Origin: a virus
IMG/VR virus record: IMGVR_UViG_3300033151_000426
Coordinates: 1 to 29,027 of that record
Reading direction: 5' to 3' (one strand)
Length of the DNA stretch: 29,027 bases
The notes under the pieces were generated by a model that was not told where the DNA came from, did no database searches, and saw nothing but the letters and a program-made list of their open reading frames with translations. A program made the position numbers and the translations under genes. Below are positions 7,849-28,878 of the stretch, piece after piece (position 1 is the first letter of the stretch; each line of letters starts with the position of its first letter).

Positions 7849-8217
7849 CTATTCTGTTGCGTGAGTGGTGTCTTGTGTAAATGACACTCTACCATGTTGC
7901 AGCGTTTCAATCTCGCTATTACCGCTACCGATCTTCTGTTGTTGAAGGTCGTAGTAATGATTCCCGCTGGCGACGAACGTGTCAACGCTCGATAGTTGAA
8001 TTTGCAACTTACCTGACGAACTGTCGTTACCCGCTATGGCAATTGCCGTGACCTGTACCAATGCGATCACATCAGGGTCTTTGGGGCTTTCTTTCACCGT
8101 AAACCAGAATTTATCATCTGCGATATCGATTGCTACACCGGATTCATCGGTGACAATAATCTCAAGAATAATGTCATCACCACGCATGATGCTCTCTATA
8201 TCCTTTCGCTCGCTCAT
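7849..8217 (-). CDS. BppU-N-like small baseplate/tail protein (paralogue 2)
   Basis: A 122-residue protein aligning by eye with the products at 1368-1706 and 8312-8674: MRGDDIILEI near residue 11, DIADDKFWFTVK near 31, and SGNHYYDLQQQ near 83, then a final strand pair GRVSFTQDTT. This is the immunoglobulin-like docking domain pattern of baseplate upper proteins. It directly precedes the large fibre gene, matching the order BppU-like then MGC-protein seen again at 1706-889. The start overlaps the stop of a 33-codon gene as ATGA. The likely role is to connect the fibre to the tail tip. The name rests on pattern similarity and context. Confidence 0.74.
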   Translation of the reverse strand: MSERKDIESIMRGDDIILEIIVTDESGVAIDIADDKFWFTVKESPKDPDVIALVQVTAIAIAGNDSSSGKLQIQLSSVDTFVASGNHYYDLQQQKIGSGNSEIETLQHGRVSFTQDTTHATE

Positions 8218-8315
8218 TTTTTCTTCCTCTGAGTACTTTTTACAGACTTGATTACAAACCGTCCGTTTGATTTAGTCGATATTTGCTTACCTGCCATTTT
8301 AAATTTGACGGTCAT
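8214..8315 (-). CDS. tiny basic protein, 33 aa, unknown function
   Basis: This gene sits exactly between two BppU-N-like genes, overlapping the first as ATGA at its start and the next as ATGA at its end. The 33 residues include about ten lysines plus two arginines and end in QRKKK, with no acidic residue, so the peptide is extremely basic. An in-frame extension to 8399 exists but would overlap the previous gene far more than any other pair in this operon. No domain can be named. It could bind nucleic acid or an acidic partner, or merely couple translation between its neighbours. Belief in it rests on the double ATGA junction. Confidence 0.5.
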   Translation of the reverse strand: MTVKFKMAGKQISTKSNGRFVIKSVKSTQRKKK

Positions 8316-8674
8316 GCGCGTGTTACCTGCTGTAGAACTAATACTTTGCCAAGCGCCACCGTTGTGATCTCGCCAGCGCCTGACTGAGTTTTCGCCCACT
8401 GATAATCGTAATGGTATGTCCCGTGGGCGATATTAGACTCCTCAGCCGATACAACGAAGCGAACTACCCCAAATCTAGCAAGTTCGCTGGACTCAATGTT
8501 AAGAATCTTCTGCAATACGGCGTCTTCATCGCTATCGTCTTTGCTGCGTTTTAATGTGAGGTATAGCACGTCACCGATAACATCTAACGGGTCTCCGTTG
8601 TCATCAGTCAAGCGTAGCTCGAACACCAGAGTGTCACCTTGGACAAACGGCTGAAGGTCTGAGAGTATTGTCAT
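8312..8674 (-). CDS. BppU-N-like small baseplate/tail protein (paralogue 1)
   Basis: A 120-residue protein and the first of the three paralogues in transcription order. It carries VQGDTLVFELRLTDDNG at 11-27, LDVIGDVLYLTLKRS at 30-44, a variable charged middle, and HGTYHYDYQW at about 84-93, followed by G-x-G and a last strand pair. The RGDD seen in the other two is QGDT here. It overlaps the adhesin gene's stop by one base (TAATG). As with the others, an immunoglobulin-like docking domain of the baseplate upper protein type is the best reading. Three diverged copies suggest either a hetero-oligomeric ring or separate adaptors for separate receptor-binding proteins. Confidence 0.74.
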   Translation of the reverse strand: MTILSDLQPFVQGDTLVFELRLTDDNGDPLDVIGDVLYLTLKRSKDDSDEDAVLQKILNIESSELARFGVVRFVVSAEESNIAHGTYHYDYQWAKTQSGAGEITTVALGKVLVLQQVTRA

Positions 8675-17135: not shown

Positions 17136-17495
17136 TTAGTCAACCTCTTGCATCGCACCATACTCAATCAAACGGACACGTTGCAATAAACCAGCTTGCC
17201 GTTTGTGCTTAATATTCATGGTGGCGATAATAGCACACACAGCAGGGGTCTTATAGCCAGCAAACACCATCCGGGTTTTCTTACCCTGCTGACGTTCACT
17301 GTACGCGAAATCGGCAGGTGACAACAACATCACGACCTGCCAAGCATCAACACAACACTCGAATAACTCGAAACTGTCAGCAGCGCGGTACTTCTCGATA
17401 ACGTCATCCGGTGCACCCAATGCGGTCATCTGAGCGATCAGCTCCTTGTTCTTATTGCTACCACCGGATGCCCAGTACGCTCCGGCGGCGATTAG
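17136..17495 (-). CDS. tail assembly chaperone GT, frameshifted C-terminal part
   Basis: This reading frame is entered by -1 slippage at 17495-17501 and runs 119 codons to the TAA abutting the tape measure start. With the 152 residues of the upstream ORF it gives a 271-residue fusion, equivalent to lambda gpGT. The T part is helical, with a CC pair near the ATG-proximal end (FECCVDAWQVVMLL). The only ATG (17429) lacks an obvious ribosome-binding site, and the frame is open from the slippery site, so independent initiation is unlikely. In lambda, gpGT recruits tube protein to the tape measure during tail assembly and is absent from virions. The match is by gene order and frameshift architecture, not by sequence. 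Confidence 0.85.
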   Translation of the reverse strand, partial: LIAAGAYWASGGSNKNKELIAQMTALGAPDDVIEKYRAADSFELFECCVDAWQVVMLLSPADFAYSERQQGKKTRMVFAGYKTPAVCAIIATMNIKHKRQAGLLQRVRLIEYGAMQEVD

Positions 17496-17501
17496 TTTTT
17501 T
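17461..17501 (-). promoter_or_regulatory. -1 programmed ribosomal frameshift site with downstream hairpin
   Basis: Minus-strand codons TCA AAA AAC TAA give the heptamer A AAA AAC in the correct X XXY YYZ phase, directly before the G stop codon. Six bases (TAATCG) separate it from an 8-bp stem, CCGCCGGA with TCCGGTGG (one G-U pair), with a 12-base loop. After slippage the frame is CTA ATC GCC GCC and stays open into the T ORF. All three parts of a canonical site are present. Confidence 0.88.
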
Positions 17502-17950
17502 GAGATAACTCCGTCTTCAACCGCCTTATCAACCGACCCGCTTGCCTGACTCCATACTTCGAGGATTGCGTCGCGTACCGGGACAACGCTCAATATCTCA
17601 GCTTTCGTTTCTTCGTTGTACGGGACAATCGACCCATCACTATCTAATAGGTCGCGCCACCCAACAATGTCCTTCATCAACAGTTTGTCGCTGGCTGCTT
17701 CAGATTGGTCAATCAACTTCTGGATAGCGTCAAGCTCGTCCTCGGTGACGTCAGCATTGGTCAGGGCATCACTGTACCCTGAAGATGACTTCAGGGACTT
17801 CATGGCACCCTTGAGTCGCAGTTTGCGCTCTTTGTCACTAATGCGCTTGAACAGTATGCTGAAGTTCATCGTGAAGTCACCGTCAAGCAGGTGTAAGGTA
17901 ACCTCTGGGATTTTTACGATGATTGCGGATTGTAATAATTTGAGTGTCAT
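17492..17950 (-). CDS. tail assembly chaperone G
   Basis: A 152-residue protein, zero-frame product of the G/GT pair. The N-terminal part is beta-rich (VTLHLLDGDFTMNFSILFKRIS), typical of tail chaperones that begin with a substrate-like tail-tube-related segment. The remainder is helical and charged, ending VEDGVISKN at the slippery site. It starts with ATGA overlapping the RHH gene. In lambda-like phages the G protein is made in large excess over GT and both coat the tape measure protein before tube polymerisation. The location between the tail tube and tape measure genes agrees. Family identity is by position, size and the frameshift. Confidence 0.85.
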   Translation of the reverse strand: MTLKLLQSAIIVKIPEVTLHLLDGDFTMNFSILFKRISDKERKLRLKGAMKSLKSSSGYSDALTNADVTEDELDAIQKLIDQSEAASDKLLMKDIVGWRDLLDSDGSIVPYNEETKAEILSVVPVRDAILEVWSQASGSVDKAVEDGVISKN

Positions 17951-18099
17951 TTCTCTTTCTCTTTGTTAATGAGTTCCTGTCTGGCTATCATCATGTCAAC
18001 CAATAGGGTAATGGGCATATCAAGGTCTACTGACATTTGCCGGAGCTTCTTGTGGTTCACAGTGCTTACGCGAATCGATTTATATCTTGGATTGTCCAT
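17947..18099 (-). CDS. ribbon-helix-helix (Arc/CopG-type) DNA-binding protein, 50 aa
   Basis: This gene is too short for usual length cut-offs. The 50-residue product has the plan of a ribbon-helix-helix repressor: a beta strand KSIRVST (7-13), helix A about 14-27 (NHKKLRQMSVDLD), a turn with MPIT, and helix B about 30-47 (LLVDMMIARQELINK). Residues Lys7, Arg10 and Ser12 alternate on the strand as expected for bases contacted in the major groove. The start codon ATG at 18099 lacks a Shine-Dalgarno sequence. The gene overlaps G as ATGA and is divergent from the HNH gene at 18162. An 8-bp inverted repeat spans both predicted promoters. Proteins of this class bind such repeats as dimers of dimers, so auto-regulation and control of the HNH gene are inferred. 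Confidence 0.75.
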   Translation of the reverse strand: MDNPRYKSIRVSTVNHKKLRQMSVDLDMPITLLVDMMIARQELINKEKEK

Positions 18100-18105
18100 T
18101 GTTTG

Positions 18106-18114
18106 ATATTACCA
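18106..18114 (-). promoter_or_regulatory. candidate extended -10 promoter for the RHH gene
   Basis: On the minus strand TGG precedes TAATAT (TG-n-hexamer; 4 of 6 consensus positions, including the key A2 and T6). Transcription would start about 7 bases later, at the ATG of the RHH gene, giving a leaderless message. There is no good -35: TTACAG stands at 19 bases. The terminator at 19067-19095 lies upstream, so a local promoter for RHH, G and the tape measure would be useful. Confidence 0.35.
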
Positions 18115-18149
18115 CACGATAGCGATTGAACTGTAAGCATTTATCGTGT
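18114..18149. promoter_or_regulatory. 8-bp inverted repeat, candidate operator between RHH and HNH genes
   Basis: ACACGATA at 18114-18121 and TATCGTGT at 18142-18149 are perfect reverse complements, 28 bp centre to centre. Each copy lies directly before the predicted -10 hexamer of the gene it faces, and each is followed 12-14 bases later by that gene's ATG. This symmetry suits binding by the adjacent RHH protein. Confidence 0.55.
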
Positions 18150-18154
18150 AAAAT
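18126..18154 (+). promoter_or_regulatory. sigma70-type promoter of the third HNH gene
   Basis: TTGAAC (18126-18131), a 17-bp spacer, and TAAAAT (18149-18154; 5 of 6). The predicted start, about 7 bases on, coincides with the HNH ATG at 18162, so the message would be leaderless. The downstream operator half-site overlaps the spacer and the first base of the -10. Confidence 0.65.
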
Positions 18155-18161
18155 ATACCAC

Positions 18162-19097
18162 ATGAAAACTTGTACTAAATGTGGTGAAGAAAAGCGGCTG
18201 GCGGAGTTCTACGTATGGGACGGTAAATATAAAGCGGAGTGTAAGCCGTGCGCCATATTAAGAGCCAAGGAATACGCGCGTAAAAATAAAGAGACAGTCA
18301 GCAAGAAAAAACACAACGCATATCTCAAGAAAACAGAAGGTATTGTGACAAGGTTCATACCAAGAGAGATTATAGACGGAAAACTTACTTGCAACACTTG
18401 CAACGCGAACAAAACAACCTCTGAGTTCCCTATACATAAAAATAGCAGGTTAGGTGTGGGATACAAATGTAAAACTTGTATGACCGATGCACGGGTGAAA
18501 AATCGACACGAAACAATACCAAATTACACGCCTGTTCGCGTTAGAAAATTTACAGAAGTGGGATTTGTTTGCAGAGACTGTAACACAGATAAACCATTAT
18601 CAGACTACGTTAAAAACAAAGCAAACATACTTGGAATAGACTACAGATGCAAAGAATGTCGGAAAATATACACCAAGAATAATGAGGCCGCAATTCGTTT
18701 AAAAGTGAAACAACACAGGGTAGCTAACAAAAAAAATATAGCGAAAATATTTAAGAGTTGGAGCGTCAAAAATAAACCTAAGCTTAAAGCTAAAGCAGCC
18801 AAAAGATTAGCAGACGTTGATAGTAGAACTCCAATATGGGCAAGCCGCGCTCTTATTTTGAATGTTTATGAACAGGCTGTAGAACTAATGGAGTTGTGGG
18901 GAGAAGTTGTGCATGTTGACCATTTTTACCCTTTGCGCGGCAAACAGGTGTCAGGGCTTCATGTGTGGGAAAATCTACAACTATTAAGCGCAACAGCGAA
19001 TCACCAAAAGTACAACAAACACCCTGACGAGATTGTTTACCTCGGTTGGCTGTATCCACAGGCATTAAAAAGCCACCCTCTTTACGAAGGTGGCTAG
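18162..19097 (+). CDS. HNH endonuclease with three zinc-ribbon repeats
   Basis: The ATG at 18162 is chosen because a promoter fits immediately before it. An in-frame TTG at 18126 is the -35 element itself. The 311-residue protein opens with three cysteine modules of the form CxxC ... CK(x)C: CTKC/CKPC (4-30), CNTC/CKTC and CRDC/CKEC, spaced about 65-70 residues, forming three zinc-binding repeats. A lysine-rich linker follows. The C-terminal nuclease core is HVDHFYPLRGKQVSG (251 on) with HVWENLQLL and ANHQK. These positions match the His-Asp-His and Asn of HNH nucleases whose cores read VDHI-x-PL-x-GK. This is a different HNH family from the two at 2189 and 3770. No ribosome-binding site is visible. 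Its A+T-rich codon use differs from the flanking genes, which suggests transfer. Confidence 0.9.
   Translation: MKTCTKCGEEKRLAEFYVWDGKYKAECKPCAILRAKEYARKNKETVSKKKHNAYLKKTEGIVTRFIPREIIDGKLTCNTCNANKTTSEFPIHKNSRLGVGYKCKTCMTDARVKNRHETIPNYTPVRVRKFTEVGFVCRDCNTDKPLSDYVKNKANILGIDYRCKECRKIYTKNNEAAIRLKVKQHRVANKKNIAKIFKSWSVKNKPKLKAKAAKRLADVDSRTPIWASRALILNVYEQAVELMELWGEVVHVDHFYPLRGKQVSGLHVWENLQLLSATANHQKYNKHPDEIVYLGWLYPQALKSHPLYEGG
19067..19095 (-). terminator. intrinsic terminator after the tail tube gene
   Basis: On the minus strand AGCCACC and GGTGGCT form a 7-bp stem with an 11-base loop, followed by TTTT(A). It lies about 23 bases after the stop of the tail tube gene. On the other strand no T-run follows, so it acts only on late transcription. 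The stem encodes the last codons of the HNH gene on the plus strand (ends at 19097). Confidence 0.75.
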
Positions 19098-20645: not shown

Positions 20646-21193
20646 TATCTGAACCCGGCACGTATTAGTTGATAATCCATCGCACGTGCAAATTGGATGG
20701 GCAACTCGTCACCCATGAACTTGAATGTTCTACGGGTGTTCTTCTTGGTGTTGACCATCTGTGGCATCGCCAACGTAGTACGTTTCTCAATAGGGAGGCG
20801 ACTACGGCCTTTACGACGGAAAGCCGCGTAACCACGTATAGCAAAACCACCCTTGACCACCTTGCGTTTCTTGGTGATGCGTACCGTAATCGCTCGACGC
20901 TTCTTCTTACCGCGACCAATGCTACGACTACCGAGCGCGAACCTCTCCATGCTCAGCCGATTACCTGTGTACCCAAGCTCATACGCAGGAGGAGATAGCG
21001 AGAGGCGTTTTATATATGACTGACTCTGAACGGTGCCAGCCTTTATCGTGTAGTCTTCCCTCACGAACTTCTTTATCTGGGTGCGGGTCTTGGCAAGCGT
21101 GTTGCGGATAGCAGCACCGTTAGCTCGTTCCACCAGCTTGTAACCGAAGTTCTTTACCAGCTTATCGTAACCCTCGAATTCGATCTTAATCAT
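20645..21193 (-). CDS. minor tail protein Z-like (tail completion)
   Basis: A very basic 182-residue protein. The N-terminal helix (GYDKLVKNFGYKLVERANGAAIRNTLAKTRTQIKKFVREDYTIK style) and the basic central strand region (GKKKRRAITVRITKKRK) agree with gpZ-type minor tail proteins. The C terminus ends with ARAMDYQLIRAGFR. It overlaps the FII-like gene as ATGA, and the lambda gene order FII-Z-U-V is preserved here. In lambda gpZ is needed to make connection-competent tails. The positive charge could help pass DNA. Confidence 0.82.
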   Translation of the reverse strand: MIKIEFEGYDKLVKNFGYKLVERANGAAIRNTLAKTRTQIKKFVREDYTIKAGTVQSQSYIKRLSLSPPAYELGYTGNRLSMERFALGSRSIGRGKKKRRAITVRITKKRKVVKGGFAIRGYAAFRRKGRSRLPIEKRTTLAMPQMVNTKKNTRRTFKFMGDELPIQFARAMDYQLIRAGFR

Positions 21194-28212: not shown

Positions 28213-28878
28213 TCAATTGATCTCCTGCTCTGTCAGCGTCACTCGCAGCTTGTCGATTTCCCGGTCAACGATTGCCAGTTGTTCTGGGCTGAGGCCGACC
28301 TCCCGTTCAATGTGGTCGGGTAAGGTTGAGAGTGATATGTCGATGACCTTAAACTTCTCAGCGATGAAGTGATGCAGGTCGTCGGTGGAAACATAGTTGC
28401 CGAGTTTCACCTGCAACTCGACGTATTTCAGTTGTGACTCGATTACCGCCTTTCGTTCGGCGGGCTTCAGGCCAGCATAGGGATCGTCGCCGTCCTCCGT
28501 GCTCAGGTCGATGCCAAATATCTTTCGTGCGGTTTCCGGCAAGCTATATGCAAGCTTGCCGTTTACCGTACCCGTTGATCTGAGGTTGCCAATTTGTTCG
28601 CTCACATGACGAGGGGTCATCTGTAATAATTTACTCAATTCGAGCTGCGTATAAATATCGTTGCGGTCAATTACCCAACGTTTCGCGTTGCCCTCACGAC
28701 CTGAGACGCGATTTTGCGACGTGGAGGTAGCTTCTGGCTGGTTGTTTGCGGCTGGATCATCTGCCGCAGAACCAGTTGGTGAACCGTATCTCTGGTTGCG
28801 TTTGTAGTGTGCGCTACATAGTTGTTTTGCGAAGTTTGGGTTTTGACAACCACGTACACTACATTTACCTTTAGCCAC
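28213..28878 (-). CDS. terminase small subunit (Nu1-like) with N-terminal zinc finger
   Basis: It starts at GTG, with AGGGG six bases before it. The 221-residue product has an N-terminal finger Cys6-x4-Cys11-x9-Cys21-x2-His24 followed by YKRNQRYG, a motif common in phage HNH proteins and DNA-binding small proteins. A low-complexity linker (33-65) leads to a winged-helix segment (about 71-117, TQLELSKLLQMTPRHVSEQIGNLR, then SLPETARKIFG), typical of Nu1-like TerS. A helical, charged oligomerisation part follows. It recognises packaging sites and regulates TerL. The finger is not part of lambda Nu1 and may add DNA contacts. It comes directly before TerL, as expected. The domain fusion is the odd feature. 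Confidence 0.88.
   Translation of the reverse strand: MAKGKCSVRGCQNPNFAKQLCSAHYKRNQRYGSPTGSAADDPAANNQPEATSTSQNRVSGREGNAKRWVIDRNDIYTQLELSKLLQMTPRHVSEQIGNLRSTGTVNGKLAYSLPETARKIFGIDLSTEDGDDPYAGLKPAERKAVIESQLKYVELQVKLGNYVSTDDLHHFIAEKFKVIDISLSTLPDHIEREVGLSPEQLAIVDREIDKLRVTLTEQEIN

Follow-up and report, generated by a model that had tools for sequence, protein, structure and literature searches.

The window, the whole stretch of 29,027 bases analysed here, is an uncultivated virus record in which an HNH endonuclease gene, oriented against the late operon, diverges from a very small gene at the head of the tail operon. This layout is real. The reading we prefer, with moderate confidence and a little above an even chance, is an acquired antisense HNH block at a variable junction, whose divergent gap would restart transcription of the tail operon. 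The structural genes (terminase, portal, capsid protein E, neck genes, major tail protein (MTP), tail chaperones and tape measure) are all leftward. Between the MTP and the chaperone genes lie the HNH gene and a leftward 50-aa ORF, arranged head to head. The features of the locus are as follows.

17136 to 17429, minus strand: tail assembly chaperone extension (T-like), an open -1 frame
17492 to 17950, minus strand: tail assembly chaperone, zero frame (G-like); as in relatives, it lies between MTP and tape measure
17495 to 17501, minus strand: canonical slippery heptamer A AAA AAC, -1 frameshift into 17136-17429, the -1 frame being open
17947 to 18099, minus strand: 50-aa ORF that opens the leftward tail operon; its resemblance to RHH proteins is by eye only
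18106 to 18111, minus strand: candidate -10 box TAATAT, extended -10 form TGGTAATAT, 6 bp upstream of the ATG, a consensus match only, read from the sequence
18114 to 18121, plus strand: left arm of an inverted repeat, ACACGATA
18126 to 18154, plus strand: promoter-like site TTGAAC-17-TAAAAT directed towards the HNH gene, 9 of 12 matches in the promoter scan
18142 to 18149, plus strand: right arm of the inverted repeat, TATCGTGT
18162 to 19097, plus strand: HNH endonuclease gene, 311 aa, matching phrog_1035 (endonuclease VII) at E 3e-27
19071 to 19095, minus strand: leftward intrinsic terminator after the MTP gene, z -3.4, with a counterpart in the related contigs L003 and L004
19118 to 20059, minus strand: major tail (tail tube) protein gene, MTP, matching phrog_290, the upstream neighbour

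The first-pass annotation had given the genes these coordinates and strands, with 62 bp between the start codons of the 50-aa ORF and the HNH gene, and its layout and inverted repeat were recovered; the RHH fold that it assigned to the small protein was not.

According to the preferred reading, a free-standing HNH gene would have entered in antisense orientation, at a point flanked by the terminator of the MTP operon and the tail-chaperone genes with their frameshift. The AT-rich gap and the 50-aa gene would probably have come in with it. Of the divergent promoters predicted in this gap, the plus-strand one would drive the HNH gene and the minus-strand one would restart the leftward tail operon, i.e. 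the 50-aa gene, the chaperones, the tape measure and onward. A promoter within the inserted block would then be required for essential tail genes, and the block would be hard to lose for that reason.

The terminator of the MTP gene overlaps the final codons of the HNH reading frame. Two viral contigs (L003 and L004), whose MTP is 78% identical to that of the window, carry, at the corresponding position, a terminator that differs in sequence; the terminator therefore belongs to the phage and not to the HNH gene. L003 and L004 come from different metagenomes and show 99-100% identity between about 0.5 kb and the MTP end (almost identical for 6 kb). They share the terminator and diverge just beyond it, where the HNH gene of the window lies, a divergence that could be a contig-end artefact, as both contigs stop some 25-50 bp from the terminator. 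A DNA scan with their shared terminator returned these two contigs only. Chaperone and tape-measure proteins found no viral contigs as queries, so that the far side of the junction is not readable.

In more distant relatives the MTP gene is followed directly by the chaperone and then by the tape measure. Relatives read at this locus, mostly with 24-38% MTP identity, possess neither an HNH-family gene nor anything matching the 50-aa protein; the contigs of the 78% relatives end there. Base composition steps down across the block, with a GC content of 0.416 in the small gene, 0.339 in the gap and 0.398 in the HNH gene vs 0.48 and 0.47 for the genes on either side. Codon scores are about 0 for the 50-aa ORF and the HNH gene vs 0.11-0.22 for most phage genes. 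The codon score of the 50-aa ORF (-0.001) is like that of the HNH gene rather than those of the phage genes; for so short an ORF, neither GC content nor codon score carries significance by itself. An Rfam search gave nothing convincing.

As had been proposed, the small gene is linked to the tail-chaperone operon: its stop overlaps the start of the chaperone gene in an ATGA at 17950-17947, and because of this overlap the ORF is likely a real gene. The chaperone gene itself carries the canonical -1 slippery heptamer, which joins two frames before the tape measure gene. The G-like frame has a weak tblastn match to a gene of a Pelagibaca phage that adjoins the MTP gene of that phage. Elsewhere in the window, three genes (1368-1706, 7849-8217 and 8312-8674) match phrog_1084, a family of unknown function.

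Two outward promoters are plausible in the gap, and both messages would be leaderless if the predictions are correct. The plus-strand site consists of TTGAAC (18126-18131), a 17 bp spacer and TAAAAT (18149-18154); the minus-strand TAATAT (18111-18106) stands without a good -35. Each -10 box adjoins an arm of the inverted repeat as the first-pass annotation described, the right arm overlapping TAAAAT by one base and the left arm lying two bases from TAATAT. Leaderless messages, also predicted there, fit the spacing, which puts both expected starts at the ATG or within about 2 nt of it; the promoters behind them are consensus matches only. Neither the 50-aa ORF nor the HNH gene has a Shine-Dalgarno sequence, which is not special to them, as several other genes of the window are also without one. 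The promoter scan found 14 sites vs 18 in shuffles, so that such matches are no commoner than expected at random. The tail operon could instead be transcribed by read-through of the MTP terminator.

Free-standing endonuclease genes of T4 offer a close parallel to a promoter-supplying block. Promoters for host genes embedded in such genes have been argued to favour their retention (PMC2988022), and in segG, segA and others the promoter for neighbouring genes lies inside the inserted block (PMC2988022), as proposed for the window. The T4 seg/mob free-standing homing endonucleases share with the window an intergenic nuclease gene absent from relatives and a terminator nearby. One of them, segD, is likewise antisense and lies between capsid genes (PMC2988022); the HNH gene of the window has a promoter candidate of its own, whereas none was found for segD. 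The window gene also differs from seg/mob in its HNH family and its zinc-ribbon repeats. If the tail operon truly starts inside the acquired block, a selfish nuclease gene would secure itself via a promoter for essential genes, a clear case outside the T4 group, where the idea arose.

The inverted repeat of the gap is perfect over 8 bp (ACACGATA/TATCGTGT), with centres 28 bp apart as the first-pass annotation had it. By itself it is close to chance. A perfect 8-bp repeat occurs in 2.8% of dinucleotide shuffles of the 62-bp gap (P 0.028), and the whole window contains 20 perfect 8-bp inverted repeats with loops of up to 40, vs 17.65 expected. Nor is there any excess of 8-mer copies with one mismatch (20 vs 25.2 expected). 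These counts support the reading of the repeat as a chance occurrence, the region being two AT-rich divergent promoters without an operator, to which we give an even chance. Placement is the point against it, as both arms lie beside outward -10-like boxes in only about 5e-4 of shuffles, rarer than the repeat alone, by a criterion picked after the sequence was seen. A chance repeat is compatible with the preferred reading of an acquired promoter-supplying block, as it concerns the repeat only.

The first-pass annotation had instead proposed a self-contained switch that restrains the endonuclease. As an RHH repressor, the 50-aa protein would bind TATCGTGT next to each -10 box and shut its own promoter and that of the HNH gene, so limiting the endonuclease while metering tail-operon expression. 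The adjoining arms, rarer than chance, speak for such a switch, as do residues 6-38 of the protein, which resemble a CopG-type RHH by eye and are the sole basis of the RHH label. The operator geometry speaks against it: RHH dimers usually bind adjacent half-sites, whereas here the arms are 28 bp apart and neither is palindromic itself. Moreover, the copy that had been listed as counter-evidence is confirmed as the third exact occurrence of the 8-mer (21044-21051, within TTTATCGTGTA at 21042-21052), and it lies inside a coding gene.

The 50-aa protein shares size and the by-eye pattern with Arc/CopG-type RHH repressors, from which it differs in operator geometry and in the lack of a profile match. 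It has no match in Pfam or NCBIfam, and a search of the window with PF01402 found nothing. Against a profile built on 14 genuine RHH domains, its score equals the median of its shuffled versions. Its single PHROGs match is phrog_5118, a family of unknown function (E 0.03); this family was tried as a bridge to RHH families and dropped, as neither 60 records nor 398 genomes gave a match under the thresholds applied. The single-sequence fold model consists of two helices (pTM 0.38), in a setting where intertwined RHH dimers are poorly modelled without an alignment, and has no fold match in the PDB. No relatives of the protein were found in viral contigs, phages, 398 genomes of one bacterial phylum or PDB sequences, and a plasmid match at E 4 is the single weak one. 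The RHH label is thus unsupported by sequence comparison; a repressor function of the protein is possible.

The HNH assignment is sound, given the phrog_1035 (endonuclease VII-like) match. The protein contains three CxxC zinc-ribbon-like repeats followed by a C-terminal VDH...N HNH motif with conserved D253 H254 ... N280; its Foldseek matches to HNH domains are weak. Its zinc-ribbon phage family is a common one, with matches in hundreds of viral contigs. Phage endonuclease VII-like HNH proteins (phrog_1035, phrog_2340 and phrog_2633) share the zinc-ribbon repeats and the motif VDH..PL...V.GLHV..NLQ...N..K.N. They are mostly co-oriented with the upstream gene (97 of the 133 family loci examined), whereas the window gene is divergent. 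A second HNH gene (2189-2986; phrog_374, E 8.5e-67) is likewise antisense to leftward genes, but has a Shine-Dalgarno sequence. The first 40 or so residues of the terminase small subunit (28213-28878) match parts of HNH endonuclease families.

Comparison of loci does not support the self-contained switch, and the pair of genes is not conserved. Divergent candidates number 34 among the 133 loci, and an RHH-like neighbour occurs in one of these, that of Pseudomonas phage MR14 (gp42c/gp43, L092 2753-3534). There, a 50-aa gene, Arc-like by weak PHROG and Pfam matches, is divergent from an HNH gene of the same family and has a similar 4-bp overlap with the next leftward gene, which favours the switch. 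The gap in MR14 is 89 bp long without an inverted repeat, the pair sits between two large operons, unlike in the window, and the small proteins have no BLAST similarity to each other. On the 14-domain profile the MR14 protein scores only slightly better than that of the window. A regular-expression scan for RHH among relatives matched shadow ORFs. The pairing thus appears to recur at most sporadically among the sequences compared, and the operator does not.

With its fold unconfirmed and its repeat near chance, the dedicated switch is unlikely, and the binding of TATCGTGT by the 50-aa protein to repress both promoters is speculative. The fullest version is less likely still: a mobile endonuclease block that brings along a small repressor and a divergent promoter, symmetric and leaderless, and whose takeover of the tail operon would make loss of the block lethal. 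In a search limited to an open-access library, which covers part of the literature, no dedicated transcriptional restraint on a free-standing endonuclease turned up; the repressor part, if demonstrated, would be one.

The HNH endonuclease might itself bind the repeat and autorepress, by analogy with I-TevI, which does so at its late promoter (PMC2988022). The T4 intron endonucleases provide this precedent, and the three zinc-ribbon-like repeats could supply DNA binding. However, I-TevI is the only case shown experimentally in that review, and no homing site is known here for comparison with the repeat; we consider this autorepression very improbable. A function of the repeat as an RNA hairpin is set aside because both predicted transcripts begin downstream of their arms.

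Among the family loci surveyed, L176, L177 and L179, from Vreelandella, a Clostridia MAG and an Aeriscardovia MAG, have identical ORF coordinates and translations and probably represent a single phage or contaminant contig that ended up in several genome bins.
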